Positions 3,715-24,781 of a stretch of DNA of 64,000 nt are shown piece after piece. The translations under genes and the position numbers were made by a program. The notes beneath the pieces were generated by a model that made no database searches, was not told where the DNA came from, and worked only from the letters and a program-made list of their open reading frames with translations. Numbering within the stretch: position 1 is the stretch's first letter; the number at the start of each line of letters is the position of its first letter. This DNA comes from Saprolegnia diclina VS20 (Eukaryota; Oomycota; Saprolegniomycetes; Saprolegniales; Saprolegniaceae), in NCBI RefSeq assembly GCF_000281045.1, contig NW_008246100.1, positions 514,489 through 578,488 on the forward strand, given 5' to 3'.

Positions 3715-5722
3715 CTATGAGTACTTAGAGGACGTGGCGGCGGTGGCCCACGCGGCTCGTTTGCGGTAGACCTTTTCCTGTCCACGGATGAGTGGCTACC
3801 GAGGTGGTGAGGAGCACCTTGATGTCGGTGACGGTGCGCGATACGAAGAAGCCCTGCGCTTGGCCTTCGCTGAAAATGGCGCCGAATCGGTTGCCGTACT
3901 TGGCATACGTGGTGCGCAGAAAGGCAAGTTCCGCCGGCGTAAACATCGCGCTGCGGACCGCCTTCTGGGCAAAGCCGCGCTCGACGAGCCTTGCATACTG
4001 GTTCTGTCCATCGACGCCATGACATGAGGCTTTTGGTTGACAGCACGCGCACCTTGGCGCCGTACGGGGTCCGTGACGGCAGCAGCGTCTTCTCGGCGAT
4101 GCCTCGTGAGACGACAGCGCCCCACGCCGAGCCGAGCTCGATCACGAGCGCAACGAGATGGTGACACTCGGCCGCACTCCATTTGTTGTTTCTACCATAC
4201 CGTCTGTGAGCAGCATACATCTAGTATGCTGGAAGAGGGAGGACCTCGCTTCTTGTACATGCGTGATGACAACGTCGTCATCTTCATCCTCTTCGTCATC
4301 GTCTTCGTCCATCGTCGCTGCATCATGGTTGTCTTCGTTTGGCTCCATGACTTGGATGCTGTCGTCCGGAGCAGTTGATGGTAGTGAACTAGCGAGAAGC
4401 TCCAGCTTGGGCACAATGGTGTCCAACGGCTTGGGTGTCTTCTTGCTCTCGTCGTCAGTCTTGACGCGTGCCGGCGTCGGCATGAGCTGGCCATCCGGGT
4501 CCGCGTACCCAGATCGGACACTGCCGCTGCGCACGTCGTCGACGAGCTGGAGGCAGACGCTGTCGCTGTGCTTGGTGCTGTGGCAGTAGGTGCAGAAGCG
4601 TCGCTTGCTCTCGACGAGGTCGTCCGACAGCAGCGGGATCGGCACACCGCGTGGACGCGTATACCCCTCGCGCACGATCTTGTCGCGGTACGCTATCGCG
4701 AGGTGGAAGCAGGAAGCGTCCGAGTGCTTCTTGGAGTGGCAGTACGCACAGTACAGCTTCAACTTGCTCTTCTTCTTCCGCTCCTTGGCGCGTCGGTGGG
4801 TCGGTGACGACGCTGCATCATGCGACATGGGCTCATCCTCCGTGTTGTGGAGTGTGACGGCGGTGGTCGCATCTTGGCCATCGGCGTCGTCGGTCGAGTA
4901 CGAGGCGCCGCCGCCGTCCAGAAGCATTTCCTGGTCTTCTTCGAGGTGCGTCTCGGTACGGCGCGCCCACTGTGTTTGTAAATCCTCCTGGAAAGCCTCG
5001 TAGCTCCACTGCGCTTCGTTGCGGTAGGAATCGTCCAGCATCCCGGGGGGCATCGCATGCGCCAACAGCATGCATCGAAGCTTCTCGCCGACGCTGTGGC
5101 TGTACACAATGGCGTTTGTATCGCCTTGGGCAGCTGCGACGCCCATGGCGACGATGCTGTCGACGTACGTATTCGCGGGACCGTCCAAGCGGCGGGCGAA
5201 GGTGGCCCAGTCCTCGTCGCTGTGGATCGTGATGCTCATGGCGTCGAGGAGCGCCGGAATATGCGGCAAAGGTGTGCTAGGCGTCGCGAGTAGGCGCTTC
5301 CACTTGGCGTACGGACCGCACTCGGCCGCGAGCGTCGCGTGCCAGCACGGGTCGACGGCGGAGAGCAGGTAGCGCTCAGCAGCCCGCCGGTCGCGCGCAC
5401 CGATCGCGAGTGCCTCCTTGGCCAATGCCGCTGCGACGCGGTCCTGGACGCGGGTTTGTCGCGCTTGAGTTGCGCGCCTGTGCTCGGACGGCGAGAGACC
5501 ATTGTATGGCACCTCGGGCTCCATGGCCTCGGCCTTGCTCACAATGAGGTGACGCTTGGCTGTCGACACACGCAGCGCTGCGCTTGCCGCGTCGGCGTAC
5601 TCGTCGACGGTGAAGTACTTGTCGAGGCCAACCGCTGCTGCTTCGTCCAGGAACTGCGTCGTCCAGGCGGCGATACCGGTCGCGTCCTGCAGCCGCGGCC
5701 CCGCGTACCGGTGTGCCATCAT
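3715..5722 (-). CDS. gag-like / zinc-knuckle / double Myb-SANT protein (array copy A)
   Basis: Fifth and last gene, in transcription order, of a five-gene tandem array. Exons 4259-5722, 4053-4220, 3818-4003 and 3715-3777 sum in frame to 626 residues. Residues 1-~290 are an all-helical region that starts YAGPRLQD and resembles Ty1/copia gag (UBN2-type) proteins. Two perfect CX2CX4HX4C zinc knuckles follow: CAYCHSKKHSDASC at ~325 and CTYCHSTKHSDSVC at ~377. A very acidic stretch precedes the Myb part. The first Myb/SANT-like domain (NKWSAAECHHLV...W..VV..GI..K.LLPSRT) and the second (FTPAELAFLRTTYAKYGN) lie in separate exons. The first intron is only 38 nt and is the least certain; the introns of 49 and 40 nt match copy B. 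The start is set by homology at an ATG (5722) before the YAGPRL motif; an in-frame ATG 26 codons upstream exists. Function unknown; nucleic-acid binding is inferred. Confidence 0.7.
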
Positions 5723-5945
5723 GCGGGATATCTTGTCTTGCTTGCAACCAATAGGACAAGCGCCATCTGCTTGAACGCGTTTTATGTTCAGGTTTTTCAA
5801 TTATTTAACGTTTAAATGGTTTTACGCGGTGCATGACGAGTTTTACGTACGTTTTACTCCGCCGTGTAGCATCGAGTGGAGGCTCTGGGAACGCTCAAGC
5901 TTGCGTGTTGCATAAAGGTATAGCGATGCGTCAAGATGCGTCTTC

Positions 5946-7141
5946 TTAGCTAGTAGCTCCGTGGCGTGGCATGCGGTAATATTTCTTCTACCAAAATACA
6001 GGTCAGGGCCCTCATCCTCATAATGCCACGTCATATGTACCTGGAGCGACTTGGTGGTTCGGCACGGCAAAAGCACCTTTCTCGCGTGGCCTTCGACCAA
6101 GATGGCCGCCCAGTTGCGGCCGTGCACGGCCATGAGCTTGGTGAGCGCCTTGGTTTCTTTGGGCGACCACGCGTTGCGTCTACATAGTGTAGTTGGTCGC
6201 AGGCGCAGGGATCCAAGTCTGTCTTACGGAGCCAGGTTGACCACGTCGACAGCCGTCTTGGCCTTGTACGGCAGGGGCTTGGCGGAGACGTGCAGGAAGC
6301 TGTGCTGTGGCGACGCTTTCTTGGGAATCGGACGCGCGTTCCCGGCGGTCGGAGACGTTCGCAGCGTACGGTATCGCTGCAAGCGCAGTGGGCTTCCTAG
6401 GGGCTGCAGCGGACGACGCACCAGGCTAGCGCCTGGCGGTGCAGGTCGCATGCGCTCGAGGGCGCTTGTGGGGAAAGGCGAAATGTGCGGTGTAGTGGGG
6501 ATGGACGACGTGCTGTCGGCATCTGCGGAAAGCGCCACCTTGAGTCGACCGACGATAGCGCGAAGCCAATCGTTGGACTCTTCTGCCCCGCGCATCGCCA
6601 AGAGGTCCTGCAGAGATTGGTCCATGGGTGCTTCAAGGGGTGCAACACCGTCGGTGGTGCGTTCTTGGAGCTCCGAAATGTCGTGGACCTGCTGCGCCAA
6701 GCTGGGCATGAGGCTCTTCACATGCAAGAAGAGCCATGCGTCGAATACGGTCGGCGCGGCTTGCATGGTGTCGACGAGGGCGGTGTCGAGCGCAGCGATC
6801 AAATACTGCCGCGCGCGGCGCTCGGCATCGGCGCGGTGGCGGGCGACTTGGTTCTGGATCGCTTCCTCAAGGCGCGCATGCACGCGCAGCATCCGATCGT
6901 GCGTCGCCATCTCGCGCTTGGTCCCTGAGAGCATCGGAGGCACGATGGGCTCGGCGAGCTCGGCCTCGTCGCGGAGGCGCTGGACGAGCGCCGGCGACAC
7001 GAGCAACAGGTCCTCGAACTGTGGCTTGAGGAAGTACTGCGAGAGCTGCTCGGACGCCATCGCGGCCATGAAGCCCGCCTTCCACTGCGGAAAGGCCGAC
7101 CAGCTCCCGAGCCGCGGGCCCGTGTACGGCTGGCGTTCCAT
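5946..7141 (-). CDS. gag-like protein with single Myb-SANT domain (array copy C)
   Basis: Fourth gene of the array. Exons 6228-7141, 6041-6179 and 5946-5987 (introns 48 and 53 nt) sum exactly to 364 residues. The N-terminal helical gag-like domain begins YTGPRLGSWSAFPQWKAGF, aligned with the starts of the other copies. There are no CX2C zinc knuckles; that position is a Pro/Ser/Arg-rich linker. Exon 2 gives one Myb/SANT-like domain (AWSPKETKALTKLM.VHGRNW..IL..G...K.LLPCRTTKS). The last exon starts KKYYRM at the position equivalent to NQYARL in copy A and SKYTKL in copy B, but stops after 13 residues, so the second Myb domain is missing. I chose the ATG at 7141 by homology; a TATCCGGATG motif at 7185-7194 just upstream would lie in the promoter. 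Unknown function. Confidence 0.65.
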
Positions 7142-7285
7142 TTTGCGATCTTGCATCGCATCCGGACGAACCAGGCTGGCACCGTATCCGGATGCCAACG
7201 CCTCCGGCGCCACGTCATCGCGCCTCGCCCGCCAGTCCAGCACGCATGCGCAAGGTACTACAAATCACGCTGAGAAGACAATGCA

Positions 7286-10212
7286 TTAAATGGTCACATG
7301 GGGCACGTCGTAGCTATAGGTACCGACGTCGCCAGCGTCAGCTATCGATCCGCGTCCTTGCCGTTCGAGCCAGCGCATTCGGGTCTACGCAGAGAGAGAC
7401 ATGAGCCCCTGTGCCCAGGAGCATGCATGGACCGTACCCGAACACTGTCTGTCGTGCGGCTTGGCAAGAGCGTCTTGTCGTGGTGCCCTGCAGTTAGCAC
7501 ACGGTCCCAGTCCTGTCCATGCGTCTGGACCAAGCGTTCAAGCGCCGCCGTCTCGTCGGTCGACCAAATCCTATGCAGGCGAGGTCAGTTCGAACTACTA
7601 CAAGGCCAGCATTACTCGTTGCAAGCTACGCCATCGCCGTCGCTACTGTTGGCGCGTAGGCGTTTCTTGGTCGTCGTTAGCGGCAGCGTAGATGGGGCTG
7701 GCTCGGTACGCTGCCGTTCGTTGTTGGGTTTGGTTGGCGCCACGTAACCCCGGCGCAAGCACTTTGTCTTCTTGTGCTTGGCGCGCATAGGGCACTTGTT
7801 GTCGTAGTGGCGTGTGGACTGGCAGTACGTGCAGAAGCGGCGATCTTCCTCAACGAGGTTATCGCTGCCAAGCTCTGGAAACGTCATGCCGTATGGGAGG
7901 TCGTAGTCGCTCCGAACGATCGTGTCGCGCACCGCCTGCGCCAAGCGCTTGCACGCTGCGTCGACGTGTTGGGTTCCATGGCAGTAGGTGCAGGTGGTGC
8001 GACTACGAGATTCGTCATCTTCTCGTCGTTTCGAAATCGCGTCCTTCGTGGCCGCAGCAACCGAGGACAAAAGCACCTCTGGCGAACCCCGGTCGGCGGC
8101 TTCTATCGATAAATGTACTTAGGCTTCAAAGGGGCTCCAAGCACACGTACCCTGCAAAGGCGGGGTCGACGTGCGGGATAGCTGCATCGGCGGCAATGAC
8201 GTCGTCGCGTCGGCATTTTCGGGTTGTAGGGCTAGGTAAACGGAGCGACGCTCGACTGGGTGCAGAGGCGACGCCAGAGAGTCTTCTTGCATCGTCGCCT
8301 CATACGCGGCAGCCAGCATCGTCGCCGCCGGTGACACCAACATGACGTCCTCTTCCGCGTTCGTGTCGGGAAGAGTCGCAGCGTGCGTGAGGAGGCAACA
8401 CTGCAAGTGCGCAAAGTCACCGCTGGGCACATCGGCGAGCCACAGTGCAAGGTCGCTGCGCAAGTGACACTGCAACGCGCGCACCAAGAACGACATCTTG
8501 AGGCTATCGACGACGCTGTGGTACAGCGCTGCATGCGTGCTCGACATTGGTGGAAGCGCAAAAGTTGCGTAGCGCGCGACAGCCGCCTCGAGCCGCTGGA
8601 GGAAGAGCGCGGCCTTGCACCTCGGCGAGTACGTCATTGCTGCCAAGTGCTCGAGCAACGCTGCCTTGGTGCCGTCGGGGCTGATGCAGTAGCTTCCGAA
8701 GAGGGCTTGCCACATCTCGAACGGCGACGAGGCGTCTTCAAAGTGGCCGTGGAGCGCTCCATCGACAGCCGATCGGAGATACGCGGCAGCCTCCTCGCCC
8801 ACCTCGTAGGTCTTGGCGGCATATTTCGCATGCAAGAGACCGCGCATGTGGCGAAGACGTCGACGAACACGCATGTCGTGGTCGGCGATCGTAGCCTCGG
8901 ACGGTGCCTGTGGCTCGGCGTCACGCGCGCTGGCGTGCACCTCGCGCAGCTCGGCGGGTGTGACGAGCTTCGGGTTGGCTTGCGCGTCGACCAGCGTGTA
9001 AAACTCGACGTAGCAGTGCAAGGCGGCGCGCGCGAGGAACGCAGGCTTCCATTGCGGGAAGTCTGCCATGTCCGTCAGCACCGGCCCTTCGTACCAATCG
9101 CGCTCGGGGGTTCGGTCGTGTGCATGTGGCGAGGCAGCAGCGTCGGTATCTTGAGCATGTTTGGCATCCTCACGCACGACGCCGTCTTCCTCTTTGATCA
9201 CACCTGGCGACCCGTGGCTGGGTGCATCCATTGCCAGTCCATTGTCGCGGTTAGGGCAGTCGTCGTCTCGGTGGCGTGTCGACTGGCAGGTTGTGCAAAA
9301 GCGCCGCGTCGTTATTTGGAGGCGAGAAGCGTCGCTCATCGATGGGTACGTGGAACCACTTGGGAGCACGTACCCAGCCCGCACGGTGCGCTTCTGCCGC
9401 GCCTGCGCAAGGTTGTAGCAAAAGGCGTCGACATGTTCCTTGGAGTGACAGTAAAAGCAATATGCGCCGTCGAGGTGCGCCATCATTCGCTGCTTGAGAA
9501 GCTCGTACGACAGAGGCTTTGTCTGCTCAAACGAGCCCGTGACGTCGACGGGCCAGGCGCGTGCAAACATCAAGACCTTGGTCAAGTCCATCACATTCGC
9601 CTCAAACCTCGGGTCGGCGCTGCAGCGGGCTTTCCCAAACGAGTGGCAAAGGAGAGACTGCGCGTACTGCTCCGTCGACGCCTCCAGACGCGCAAAAAAG
9701 GTCCGCGGCGCTTCGCCATCCTGGACGCGCAGGGCAAACATGCCGCAGAGACCGACTGCAAGACTCTCGGGACTGCTGACAAGGGTGCAAAGGCGCCCCC
9801 ACATCTCGTATGGCCCGCCGGCGCCGTGCAGCAACTCGCTGGAGATGGCGCTGTCAACAGCAGCGAAGAGCAGCTGCACTGCAGCGAGCATCTCGTTAGC
9901 GTAGAGCACAGTGCAAGCGCGGTCCACCGACTTCTGGACGTACTCGTCCCGAAGACTCGCGCGGCGCTTCTCGGCTTCACGGCGCTCGGCACGACGGAGG
10001 TCGAGCGACACCTCGAGGAGTCTCGAGTCGGCCGTCACCGTGAAGGCGTCCATCGTAGCAGCCGAAATGCGATCGGCGAGGGTCGGGTCGCGGTAGTCGG
10101 GCGTCGTAAAGTACGCGTCCAGCCCGCGCATGGTGGCGGCGGCCAAGAACGCCGGCTTCCACGTCGGGAGCTCGTGACAGGCGGTGAGCACGGGACCGCG
10201 GTACACTGCCAT
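7286..10212 (-). CDS. double gag-like / four zinc-knuckle / Myb-SANT protein (array copy D)
   Basis: Third gene of the array and the largest: exons 8151-10212, 7616-8102, 7438-7570 and 7286-7384 sum in frame to 926 residues. The first exon alone is one uninterrupted frame with two complete gag-like units. Unit 1 starts VYRGPVLTACHELPTWKPAF and ends in two CCHC knuckles (CFYCHSKEHVDAFC, CTTCQSTRHRDDDC). Unit 2 starts WYEGPVLTDMADFPQWKPAF. The second exon adds two more knuckles (CTYCHGTQHVDAAC, CTYCQSTRHYDNKC). The third gives a Myb/SANT-like domain (IWSTDETAALERLVQTHGQDW, LLPSRTTDSVR). The short last exon (TRMRWLERQGRG) matches the linker of copy A but lacks the second Myb domain. Introns are 48, 45 and 53 nt. 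The start at 10212 is by homology; an in-frame ATG at 10266 could add 18 residues. Confidence 0.7.
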
Positions 10213-10688
10213 CGTCAAAGAAGATATTGCCAACAACAACGCTCGCATCCAAGATCGTTCGGCCAACTCAGGTGTTTAAACAGGTACAACGGGGTCACAA
10301 TAGAAAAAACGTTTCGATTTCAGAGGGTAAATGACTACGTTTTTCAAGCTGCACGAGCTGTCGCTACCCCAAACCCCACCGCAAAGAGGTCATGTTTGAC
10401 GCGGATTGTCGATAGCAGTGGCGACAGACTAGAGCACACCTTGCGCCATTGTTCTGTTGACGCGTGCATTGTGCGGTCAGAAAATAAGGGAAGCTCGGCG
10501 AGCAGTCCAAGTCGGCGGCTACGTGTATGTCTGTTCACTCAAATAGAGACCTTATGCTAGGATGCTCGAATGTCTGTACGGGTGGTGAACCAAGCCTGTC
10601 TTATTGTCATCACCCATAGTCTTGACCCACGACACAGCAACACAGTAATGAAAGGCAAGTATATCAAAAGGCTCGAACCAAAAGGCGA

Positions 10689-12192
10689 CTAGATGATTGC
10701 TTGGGGTGTCATCCCCGCGCGCATTCGCTGCAGCTTTCTCTACGAGATCGAGTATCAGCAAGTGCTAGGACTCGTACAAGAACAGTACATATATGCCTTC
10801 GAGTCCGCGGCCAGCCAAAAGGCCTCTGGCTTGTGCCTTGGCCGCGATGCGGGGCGCGTCGTTGCCGTACTTGGCGAGGGCCTTTTCGAGAAAAGCCATC
10901 TCGGCGGCCGTGTAAGCGCCCGACACCATTTGCGGGTTCAACGATTTCTCGAGGTGACACAGTTTGGTGTACTTGCTCTACAAAAAGGATCGTAGAGCGC
11001 TGTCAGCAGCGTATTCGGAGCGTTGTACCCGAAGGCTGCCCTCGGTGCGGCTCGGGTGCAGCATCTTGTTTGAAATGCCCTTCTGAAGTACCGTCGTCCA
11101 CTGCCGCCCGTGCCTTGCTACGAGCTCCACGAGACGCTGACATTCGCCGTCTGTCCACCTAGGAAGCGACATGAGCGTGTCGATCCATTGCTCTCGAGCG
11201 AGGTACCAAGCGTGGCCTTGCTCCTCGTCGTCCTTGCTGTTGCTGCTGCCATCTCCCTCCTCGTTTTCGCTCATCTCGGATGCGGTCGAGATGTACTGTG
11301 TCTCGTCGCACGTCGCGGCCACTGGCAGCGACGAGGCCTGGTGCCGGTTGGCCGCATTGCTGTCGAGATCGTCGAGGGCACGCTTTCTTTTGCGCTGCTG
11401 CCCGGCCCCTTCGGAGCGTTGGAGGGACGGAGGAAGGCGCCAGTGTGTGTAAACCCACTGCTTTAGACTCCCATAGTCCCACGACGGATTGCCAAGCCGC
11501 CAGTCGCGCAAGGTGTCGTGGAAGCGGGGACCGACGGCCTGCGCGAGCAAGGTCGCTCGGAGCCGATCGACGACTGCATCGCCTTCTGCCGACGCCGCCA
11601 GTGGTCGAAAGAGCGCCTTGGTGTAGCGGTCAATAGCGTCCTCCAAGCGGCTGCAAAAGGCACCCGCGGACTCGTATCGATCGTCCTGCACGGACGATAC
11701 GCGGTCGAAGAGCTCGATGAGATCACTGTCCCGAGTCGCGTCCTCGCTTCTCTGACGCAGTGCCTTCCACATGTCGTATGGACTGTGCAGCGTACGTACG
11801 CAGTCGCGGAGGCCCGGACTCAGCGCCGAGCGTAAATGCTGCGCGGCGCGCCGAGCCGCGCGCGTCTTGATCGCCGCGCACTCGGCTATGACCGCAACCG
11901 TGATGCGGTCGTTGACAAGACGCTTTCGCCGATGGAGTGCGTTCTCGTACGCGGCCACGGTCTCTTCGGGGTGCAAGTACGGCTCGGCAAACTCGGCATT
12001 GGTCGTAATGAGGTGCATCTTGGCTGGCGAGATGTAGTCGGCGAGGTCCGGGTCTTCATACTCCTTGGTCGTGTAGTACTCGCGGAGGTTGAGCTCCTCG
12101 GCTGCGTCGAGGAAGCCGACGTACCACGTCTCAAAGTCGCCGATGGCCGCAAGCAGCATTGGTGGCGGCGTCGTTGGCACACCCAAGCTCAT
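10689..12192 (-). CDS. gag-like / double Myb-SANT protein without zinc knuckles (array copy B)
   Basis: Second gene of the array. Exons 11029-12192, 10789-10977 and 10689-10739 (introns 51 and 49 nt) sum to 467 residues. The N-terminal gag-like domain (DFETWYVGFLDAAEELNLREYY ... SPYDMWKAL ... Y.SAGAFCSRLEDAIDRY) is followed by a basic patch (RKRKR) and an acidic linker. The first Myb/SANT-like domain is LPRWTDGECQRLVELVARHGRQW...GI..KMLHPSRT. The second, in exon 2, is YTAAEMAFLEKALAKYGN followed by AQARGLLAGRGLEGI. The exon 3 tail (RKLQRMRAG) aligns with EKVYRKRA of copy A, so the two intron positions flanking the second Myb domain are shared between copies. There are no CX2C knuckles at all. 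A nuclear DNA-binding role is inferred only from the Myb-like folds. Confidence 0.7.
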
Positions 12193-12371
12193 CCCTTGGA
12201 TTTCGTTGGCCTCTACCGCGATGCCATTGGTCGACAGTGACGAATCAGCGTGCAGTGCTTCAAAACATGTTTAAACAGGTTTAGCCCATCGCGCCAACGT
12301 GCACGAGCATGATGGCGAATTGCTGTTTCATTTGGCAGAAGTGCGCGATTCGAATTCGTTTACCCTATCGT

Positions 12372-13475
12372 TTAACGTCGTTTGACATGGGCGTCGGACG
12401 AGTCGGCAATGGAGATCGCCCGCTCGCGTCCCTCGGTCTTGATCCGAGCTGGCTCTTCGACCTGTCGGCGGCGCTTGCGAGGTGGCACCTGATCGGTGGC
12501 GTGAGCGCTGGCCTTGGTGGGCTGCACGCACGTTGCTTCCGAATGTCTCGTCGACTGGCAAAAGCTGCAGCTCGGCTCCTTCTTGACGGGCAGCCCGTCG
12601 TGCACTAGCTCCTGCGGCGGACTGGCAGCGCGTGCTGCGTGATGCGCCGCTTCCATTTGACTCACGACGTGCTGCTTGATGCGAGTGTAGTCCCAGTGCG
12701 CAAAGCCTGCTTGCCACTGCTCAAACTGGTCTCGCAAATGCGGGGGCAGCGCATTGGCCAGCAGCGCGACGCGGAAGCGGTCGCCCACCACGTCGGCGTA
12801 AGACTGCGTCGCATCGCTGGCACTGCCGGCCGCGGTTAGATACGGCACAATGTACTCGTTGGCGGCGATTTCAAAGCGCTCAAAGAACTCCATAGCGTCC
12901 TCGCCGCGCATGTGCTTGATCTGCATGGCGCACTGGAGCTGGCGAAAGAGTCCCGCGCCAGTCGCGTGGATCGGTGCACCGCGAAACGTGGTGTCGAGCC
13001 ACGACCAGATCGCGCTTGGGCTTGAGAGAGCGCTGGCTTTCGAGCGCAGCGGTGGCGCCAACGCAGAGAGAAGGTACAGACGCGCGGTGCGCAAAGCGCG
13101 ACTCTTCAAGTGCGCTGCTTCTTTTGTCAACGCCAGCGCGACGCGCTCCTGCACGCGGGCCTGGCGACGTTGCATGTGTTTTTCCCACTTGCGAGCGCTC
13201 AACCCACTCGGCACCTCGGGCTCGGCGCACTCGGCGCGGCTCGTCAAGAGATGGGTCTTGGCCGGGGAGATAAGGTCGGTCAGGACCGCGTCTTCATAGT
13301 TGGGGTTCGTGTAGTACTTGGCGAGGCGCAGGTCGCCCGCAGCACTCAAGAACGCTACTCGCCATGCAGCGAATCCGCCGATTGAAGCCAAATGTGGGCC
13401 CTGGTACACGGCCGACACACTCGCAAAGCTCATCGGTCCAGCCACACGCGGAATCGTCGGCAGTTCTTCTGCCAT
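12372..13475 (-). CDS. gag-like / single zinc-knuckle protein (array copy E)
   Basis: First gene of the array, single exon, 367 residues. The gag-like domain begins VYQGPHLASIGGFAAWRVAF and shows the array signature: helical segments, .Y.NPNYEDAVLTDLISPAKTHL, paired Arg/Gln-rich helices, a W-containing segment and AMEFFERFEIAANEY. One CCHC knuckle follows (CSFCQSTRHSEATC), then a strongly basic PPRKRRRQVEEP stretch that looks like a nuclear localisation signal. No Myb/SANT domain follows before copy B starts 180 bases downstream. The frame opens further upstream without an ATG; the first ATG is 13475, and a second in-frame ATG lies nearer the VYQGP motif. It may be a truncated copy or a stand-alone nucleocapsid-like protein. 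Function unknown. Confidence 0.68.
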   Translation of the reverse strand: MAEELPTIPRVAGPMSFASVSAVYQGPHLASIGGFAAWRVAFLSAAGDLRLAKYYTNPNYEDAVLTDLISPAKTHLLTSRAECAEPEVPSGLSARKWEKHMQRRQARVQERVALALTKEAAHLKSRALRTARLYLLSALAPPLRSKASALSSPSAIWSWLDTTFRGAPIHATGAGLFRQLQCAMQIKHMRGEDAMEFFERFEIAANEYIVPYLTAAGSASDATQSYADVVGDRFRVALLANALPPHLRDQFEQWQAGFAHWDYTRIKQHVVSQMEAAHHAARAASPPQELVHDGLPVKKEPSCSFCQSTRHSEATCVQPTKASAHATDQVPPRKRRRQVEEPARIKTEGRERAISIADSSDAHVKRR

Positions 13476-23405: not shown

Positions 23406-24781
23406 GCGATCTCTTGATCCAGTTCGCTGCTTGGGGAGCCCGATCGTTTACTGTTGGGAGCGTTGCCGCGGTGTGCTCGCTAGCATCATTCTATCGATTT
23501 GGATAACATGATGTGGTCGACCGCAGTGACAACCTACTTATATCTCGTCTTTTTGCGTTCCTTTCAGCGCTAAGACGAACCAAGCTCATTTTTGGCTACG
23601 TTCGCAGGTTGCACATTGGCCTTTGTTTCTCGAACGACCTTGGATGCAATTGTACAGCGTAGTCCTCGCAGCATCGTTGACGATGGCAGTGTACCGCGGT
23701 CCCGTTCTCACGGCCTCGCTCGAGCTCCCGACGTGGACTGGACGCGCACTTTGCGACGCCCAACAACCGCGAGAGATCGCATCTCGGATGCTACAAGCCA
23801 ACAACAACACTCGTATCCAAGATCGTTCGTCCAACTGAGGTGCGTTAACAGGTATTAGTGCACCGGTCCAAATAAGGCTTCAAAGTAGAAATACGAGTCT
23901 ATGAGCGGGAGCTTCATAGCATGTTGGTGAACTCGGTGGTGCCGGAACGAGTGCTGTTGCGATGCCTGTGAGCTCCGCTGGTGTGGGCTTGTCGATTCTT
24001 CGATCACGCCCAGCGTCTGTTGTTTGTCGCTGCGAGTCTGCTCCCATGGTATATGTACTTTCATTGGCTCGACTGGTTGCATCACCGCAGCGGTCCAACG
24101 CGCTGCAGAAAGAAGAGCGGCGAGATTGCACGATGCAATGGTCGACTCGGTGACCTCCTGCCAAAGCTCGTGGCCATGAGGAGAGTGTCTTGCTTTCACT
24201 GTCGCTCAGCGACGGGGCGTAAATGCCGTGACATCGCCGGTGAGTTCCATGATATTGCGTTTCATAGCACAAACGTCGGCGGCATAGACCAAAACCTCAC
24301 CATTCTCAGCGCCCTCGGCCAACCCGACGTCGGCCAAGACGATGGGGACTCGTCCAACGTATTCGCACCGGACCACGGCTTGCTCTTTGCTGTCGATGCC
24401 TCCAGAGAGCTTCAAGTCCTTCTAACGCAATCGTCTACTGCAGTCGACGAGCGACAATGGTTCATTGGTATGATAGCTCCTGCTCTCGTTCGAGGCCAAT
24501 GTTGGTGATGTCGAGCTCGTCGTCGTCGAAGCGTCGTCCGACACGGAGCGATATCGTGCCAGTGGCAGCGACCCAAGGTGATCGCTGCTGGCCGCGTGCA
24601 AGCAAGCGATAACGGCGCCAAGTAAAAAAAGCTGTTGGGCCCTCGAATTAGGCAGGCGTTTTCGCAGCAGCAGAATACAAATATAGTGGGTTTCATTTGC
24701 TGAAGCGGCGCAAGCGAGACGACACGGAAGACTCGTCGCGAATCGCAGTACATGGAACGCGCCTAAGGACGACGAAGATAC
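23406..24781. other. intergenic with gag remnant, otherwise unassigned
   Basis: Apart from the gag-family fragment at about 23.63-23.85 kb, both strands show only medium-length frames without recognised domains. A + frame through ~24190-24505 starts with a CFHC motif and is unusually even in composition, and a - frame (24206-24415) is also open; neither matches a family I know. The stretch may be decayed mobile-element sequence. Confidence 0.4.
23628..23853 (+). pseudogene. scrambled, inverted-repeat remnant of the gag-like array family
   Basis: The + strand reads LTMAVYRGPVLTA.LELPTW from ~23677, nearly the same as the start of array copy D, with matching upstream bases (CGAACGACCTTGGATGC at 23631-23647). 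The frame breaks after about 20 codons. At 23797-23853 a second piece follows that corresponds to the 5' flank of copy D (10229-10285, roughly 85-90 percent identical by eye). It lies in the opposite sense relative to the first piece. The two pieces thus form an imperfect foldback with arms at 23631-23647 and 23813-23829. Not functional. Confidence 0.7.

Follow-up and report, generated by a model that had tools for sequence, protein, structure and literature searches.

Architecture of the Array

Do neighbouring genes that all start with a Gag-like domain represent a retroelement, its remnants or a family of host genes? The question is raised by Saprolegnia diclina VS20, in which positions 3715-13475 on the minus strand of the window (the whole stretch of DNA analysed here, 64,000 nucleotides long) are filled by five neighbouring genes, A to E (Table 1). 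A previous interpretation made from the letters alone, hereafter the sequence-only reading, described five adjacent same-strand genes with a common N-terminal domain, and these are indeed present at those positions. It assigned one such domain to each gene. All five have one, but gene C has two, which brings the total to six copies of a capsid-like domain of ~260 residues. The six copies score 211 to 312 bits against a family HMM that the same six helped to build, and their pairwise identity is ~24-38%, with BLASTP E-values down to 7e-40, far above chance. A Y.GP.L start motif, presented as common to all genes, is found in every one of them except D, and twice in C.

Downstream of the capsid-like domain, gene A encodes two knuckles, an acidic stretch and two Myb-like repeats; gene B one Myb-like repeat and no knuckle; gene D two Myb-like repeats and no knuckle; and gene E one knuckle and no Myb-like repeat. 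Gene C runs from a capsid-like domain over two knuckles to the second capsid-like domain, two further knuckles and one Myb-like repeat. Knuckles of the form CX2CX4HX4C accordingly number two in A, four in C and one in E (none in B and D), and all three modules occur together in A and C only. The description as gag-like/CCHC/Myb genes thus fits all five for the N-terminal domain, but knuckles are limited to A, C and E and Myb-like repeats to A-D. The models of A, C and D are predictions spliced by hand, with the splicing of D supported by the S. parasitica protein SPRG_03616, and the donor of intron 1 in A (GTCCTC) is weak. The spliced model of B matches the annotated S. diclina VS20 entry SDRG_10141 in every letter. 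On its contig (C33), the array has ordinary neighbours: a RING protein and the medium subunit of an adaptor complex (PF00928, 8e-74). An NCBIfam search returned no match, and a levanase match of gene E in a PDB search (E 0.019) was taken as chance.

Table 1. Genes, domains and motifs of the array (positions in the window).
Feature	Position	Strand	Details
Gene A	3715..5722	-	exons 5722-4245, 4191-4053, 4003-3818, 3777-3715; 621 aa; hand-spliced model, first donor weak
A capsid-like domain	4940..5710	-	family HMM, residues 31-287 of 552-aa frame
A knuckle 1, CAYCHSKKHSDASC	4709..4750	-	
A knuckle 2, CTYCHSTKHSDSVC	4553..4594	-	
A Myb repeat 1	4053..4191	-	exon between common phase-2 and phase-0 introns
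Gene B	5946..7141	-	exons 7141-6228, 6179-6041, 5987-5946; 364 aa; hand-spliced, identical to SDRG_10141
B capsid-like domain	6431..7129	-	family HMM
B Myb repeat 1	6041..6179	-	exon between common phase-2 and phase-0 introns; PF00249 8.8e-5
Gene C	7286..10212	-	exons 10212-8151, 8102-7616, 7570-7438, 7384-7286; 926 aa; hand-spliced model
C first capsid-like domain	9463..10206	-	family HMM
C first knuckle pair	9256..9459	-	
C second capsid-like domain	8350..9096	-	family HMM
C second knuckle pair	7792..7992	-	
C Myb repeat 1	7438..7570	-	exon between common phase-2 and phase-0 introns
Gene D	10689..12192	-	exons 12192-11029, 10977-10789, 10739-10689; 467 aa; hand-spliced, splice backed by SPRG_03616
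D capsid-like domain	11410..12156	-	family HMM
D Myb repeat 1, first part	11029..11169	-	up to common phase-0 intron 11028-10978; PF00249 3e-4
Gene E	12372..13475	-	single exon, 367 aa; open reading frame
E capsid-like domain	12618..13409	-	family HMM
E knuckle, CSFCQSTRHSEATC	12528..12569	-	

Shared Introns and Myb-like Repeats

As had been read from the sequence, four of the five genes contain introns (A-D in our models), while E is a single exon. Myb repeat 1 of A-D ends at a phase-0 intron common to all four. Ahead of this repeat, A, B and C have a phase-2 intron in common, and where Myb repeat 2 ends, A and D share another intron of phase 0. Intron sharing had been noticed for A and B; it holds for both, but is wider and reaches C and D. 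Since retrocopies would lose their introns, the common introns argue against A-D being retrocopies.

One or two Myb-like repeats are present in each of A-D and none in E, a second repeat being found in A and D. Repeat 1 of B and D scores 23 and 21.3 bits, respectively, against PF00249, just under the cut-off of 24.4 bits. The repeats are similar to c-Myb R1R2 in that repeat 1 resembles PF00249 and both repeats align with c-Myb in 1h88 (E 0.0019), but they differ in that repeat 2 of A and D has lost its tryptophans and that the N-terminal half of the proteins is gag-like. In a genome search for repeat 1 of the array type at E <= 1, all four matches listed are those of A-D. A possible repeat-2-like stretch is found on contig C39 (BLASTP 6e-5, HMM 0.04).

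Search for Retroelement Hallmarks

A Ty1/copia retrotransposon combines Gag with LTRs, integrase and reverse transcriptase, and none of these companions was found at the array. The genome matches listed at E <= 0.001 comprise four for RVT_2, eight for RVT_1 and six for rve, with zero on the array contig. Likewise, no reverse transcriptase or integrase is among these matches on the other contigs C132, C39, C86, C35 and C109 that carry relatives of the array genes, while C1 has two RVT_1 matches, each >150 kb from its family cluster. No LTR-like pair emerged when the 50 kb surrounding the array were compared with themselves, or in the other clusters tested (C1, C132, C86, C35 and C39). The same script did recover, as a positive control, the LTRs of a copia element on C36 (106716-107080 and 112754-113118; 365 bp, 99.5% identical). 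The claim that reverse transcriptase, integrase and LTRs are missing is therefore borne out for the matches listed on the contig and for these 50 kb. Gag-only elements with terminal repeats are named TR-GAG; terminal direct repeats around a gag-like open reading frame (ORF), by which they are recognised, were not found either, with the control positive. In a neutral simulation that included substitutions only, capsid exons were still free of stops in 17/400 cases at 73% identity, 9/400 at 60% and 0/400 at 38%; the real copies have open frames at all of these distances.

Family Members and Orthologues

Searches with E, with the C35 and C132 members and with the family HMM point to ~17 family genes at seven loci of the S. 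diclina genome: five on C33, six on C1, two on C132 and one each on C39, C86, C35 and C109, where the C86 member spans two frames and is counted once, and two C1 members match only partly. The C35 and C86 members have six knuckles each. In the C109 member, the capsid-like domain is followed by an RRM, which scores 27.5 bits against PF00076 (cut-off 20.7) after removal of an inferred intron and 15.5 bits unspliced. According to the family HMM and a knuckle search, C7 harbours knuckles with no capsid-like domain.

Relatives were found in S. parasitica (SPRG_03616 and SPRG_20185) and Achlya hypogyna (ACHHYP_02065, ACHHYP_08943 and ACHHYP_08947). The single predicted protein SPRG_03616 consists of an E-like part (73% identity over 343 residues) and, after it, a D-like part (68% over 463). 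S. parasitica thus retains the order E-D, and annotators have probably merged two genes here. The synteny check proposed in the sequence-only reading thus had a positive outcome for E and D. SPRG_20185 and ACHHYP_02065 are 91% (over 386 residues) and 58% (over 420) identical to a C132 member, and in ACHHYP_08943 the capsid-like domain is accompanied by two knuckles and one Myb-like repeat. The contig listed for ACHHYP_08943 equals that of ACHHYP_08947 in length. Among the matches listed, a protein search with gene E alone returned only E itself and one with the family alignment three proteins, whereas the knuckle region of C132a gave four among 188 candidates. As these searches are word-based, they speak for the matches listed and say nothing on Phytophthora, Aphanomyces or others.

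In a tree of 20 domains, partners from different species group together and paralogues lie far apart. E joins its S. parasitica copy with support of 100/100, D its copy with 100/98, and C132a the S. parasitica and Achlya copies with 99/100; the grouping of the first domain of C with ACHHYP_08943 is less firm (94/93). Of 17 inner branches, seven have good support and another seven, among them those of the deep order, are open. The expected orthologues in related oomycetes are hence found, with tree support, and judged by these sequences the family is older than the split of Saprolegnia and Achlya and has been inherited vertically. Given the missing reverse transcriptase, integrase and LTRs at the array, the common introns and the orthologues, we discarded a live retroelement. 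For the same reasons (common introns, orthologues, no pol or LTR found), the array very probably is an inherited host gene family that spread by DNA duplication, in agreement with the earlier preference for duplication of a host gene over fresh retrotransposition.

Relation to Ty1/copia Gag

The two gag ORFs of copia type in the same genome (L001 on C5 and L002 on C95) allow a direct comparison. In hhalign, the family aligned with these two gags at a score of 28.3 (P 0.002), which 0/200 column shuffles reached and which compares with 12.2 for the reversed profile; the hhalign probability amounts to 13.7% for the two gags jointly and 3.2% and 1.4% singly. When the family HMM was run against 1,233 ORFs, the top match outside the family was the gag ORF on C5 (E 5.7e-4, against 0.021 for the best reversed ORF), a match reached by 0/2000 shuffles. 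The C95 gag alone matches weakly, as 2/200 and 4/2000 shuffles reach its score. The C5 ORF not only passes the Pfam gag cut-off (39.5 bits) but also carries the knuckle module of the family (1.7e-7). A long-spacer version of this module is present in the C36 copia element (4.7e-4 / 0.0016; hhalign P 0.0011), in which no capsid was detected.

Pfam's Retrotran_gag_2 (PF14223) gives 11.2 bits for B, 14.1 for C and 11.3 for the family member C1b, in about one register, with none reaching the cut-off of 27 and no listed match for the other members scanned. Even at an E-value of 10, PF14223 retrieved from the genome only C5 and C95 and no family member. No PDB capsid exceeded the threshold with E, the family profile, the C5 gag or the C95 gag; weak PDB matches of the C5 ORF to nucleocapsids (E 0.7-1.8) cover the knuckle only. 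Like Ty1/copia Gag, the family has a helical domain with a CX2CX4HX4C knuckle behind it, and the profiles of the two are similar in one register; unlike Gag, it remains under the Pfam cut-off, lacks pol, has up to six knuckles and adds Myb-like repeats or an RRM. The gag origin proposed earlier gains from copia gag profiles that beat shuffles and from the shared knuckle module, but loses from the missed Pfam cut-off and the lack of a PDB capsid. In view of profile matches to copia gags that beat shuffles and of a knuckle module that a copia element has as well, the N-terminal domain is likely to descend from a Ty1/copia Gag capsid.

Putative Function and Alternative Explanations

Our preferred explanation, which we hold with moderate confidence, is that the array belongs to an old Saprolegniaceae host family of probable Ty1/copia Gag descent that acts as a multivalent nuclear scaffold. 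By analogy with Gag, the capsid-like half would most likely self-associate, and the multiplied knuckles of nucleocapsid type would, as in nucleocapsids, most likely bind RNA. The Myb-like repeats of A-D would most likely bind DNA, at least through repeat 1, as repeat 2 is degenerate. Together, these activities would produce a multivalent scaffold, presumably located in the nucleus, that links transcripts with DNA or chromatin. On its own, the idea that the family proteins are nuclear nucleic-acid scaffolds stands at about an even chance. The likeliest client of such a scaffold would be retroelement RNA or Gag; even so, restraint of retroelements as the role of the family is doubtful.

Two rivals concern ancestry. 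The N-terminal domain could be an unrelated helical domain of the host, the genes then being lineage-specific Myb-like/zinc-knuckle regulators with no retroelement in their past. This is what the unattained Pfam cut-off, the low hhalign probability and the absent PDB capsid match would lead one to expect, and host proteins may also have CX2CX4HX4C knuckles, as indicated by weak AIR2-like matches. Yet it leaves unexplained that copia gag profile matches exceed shuffled and reversed controls, that a helical domain followed by a knuckle is the order of Gag, and that, in the same genome, a copia element and a gag ORF recognised by Pfam contain the same knuckle module; we regard this rival as rather unlikely. 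Far less credible is a view of the genes as gag-only remnants or as non-autonomous members of a retroelement, mobile via a partner. Gag-like proteins without pol are scattered over seven loci, as such elements might be, but LTRs or terminal repeats are absent although the positive control worked, and retrocopies would have lost the introns common to A-D. Moreover, the copies are 24-38% identical to each other while cross-species partners are 58-91% identical, which is the opposite of recent mobility. A third rival accepts domestication but sees the present job in ordinary gene regulation, RNA storage or development rather than in restraint of retroelements. With orthologues kept across genera and varied partners (Myb on C33, RRM on C109, knuckle arrays on C35 and C86) that suggest varied jobs, its chance falls only slightly short of even.

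A bolder extension of the scaffold explanation is that the host owns a toolkit of Gag-derived scaffolds, in which one capsid-like domain is combined with varied readers, DNA being read by Myb and RNA by the RRM and knuckle arrays. This toolkit would engage copia elements that share its genome. At its most far-reaching, the idea would have the young copia element on C36 rely on, or be checked by, host-encoded capsids. We consider this extension improbable.

Comparison with Known Domesticated Gag Genes

Most known domesticated capsids come from animals, in which Arc, PNMA, SIRH/RTL and Drosophila Gagr are domesticated gag/capsid genes, mostly from Ty3/gypsy-type elements. The array, which is probably a domesticated gag-like family, is comparable in that the host appears to have retained the capsid part of an LTR element as a gene of its own that lacks pol and LTRs, sometimes with a CCHC knuckle and often as families. 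In contrast, the family resembles Ty1/copia gag, occurs in an oomycete, includes Myb-like or RRM modules and has introns in the added part. A fungal PEX14-gag fusion also joins a gag, of Bel-Pao type, to a host domain and has gained an intron (PMC10799480); it differs from the array in gag superfamily and partner, and the parts of that report available to us mention no tandem family. Domesticated gags and the gag-PEX14 fusion are hence already known, while the combination of a gag-like domain with Myb and RRM in an oomycete appears unreported: the open-licence literature yielded no gag-Myb or gag-RRM family in oomycetes, in line with the earlier supposition that the family is undescribed. If the proposed descent is true, gag would have been domesticated independently in stramenopiles, from a copia-type source and before the Saprolegnia-Achlya split. 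It would then also become a testable question whether Gag scaffolds encoded by the host bind jointly to the RNA and the DNA of retroelements.

A side observation concerns those parts of the family proteins that do not belong to the capsid-like domain. There, [VIL]KxE, a form of SUMO site, occurs nine times compared to 1.35 times in shuffles (0/1000 shuffles reach nine), but a single protein from C1 accounts for four of the nine, and this test was picked after looking.

Related sequences in the S. diclina genome

Knuckles of the family's type are also found in copia-like sequences (Table). The solitary gag ORF (338 residues) carries one, and among the matches listed there is no RVT_2 within 600 kb on the same contig. 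The copia element on C36, whose LTRs are 99.5% identical, has a family-like knuckle in the N-terminal part of its 1850-residue open frame; no capsid was detectable in that part with Pfam, the family HMM or the two copia gags. In the relative on C109, the capsid-like domain and the RRM are joined across an inferred intron. The C7 protein has knuckles of the family's type without the capsid-like domain.

Features located in the window and in the S. diclina genome (G000)
Feature	Location	Basis
GTTTAAAC	window 10274-10281 and 12269-12276	upstream of gene C and gene D starts
Solitary gag ORF	L001:1177-2190 (C5)	copia gag cut-off passed
Copia element	C36:106716-113118 (L028, L031, L032)	LTR pair and long open frame
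Relative, capsid-like domain + RRM	L043:3280-4450 (C109)	family HMM
Knuckle-array protein	L042:3472-4453 (C7)	family HMM search

Sequences associated with genes C and D

Genes C and D each have a copy of GTTTAAAC upstream, some 60-80 bases from the gene start; the window holds two copies in all against 0.4 expected (at least two in 6 of 100 shuffles). At window 23674-23854, 13.5 kb from where gene C starts, lie two short rearranged pieces of its start region: the inverted piece matches at 91% over 64 nt, the direct piece at 88% over 58 nt.
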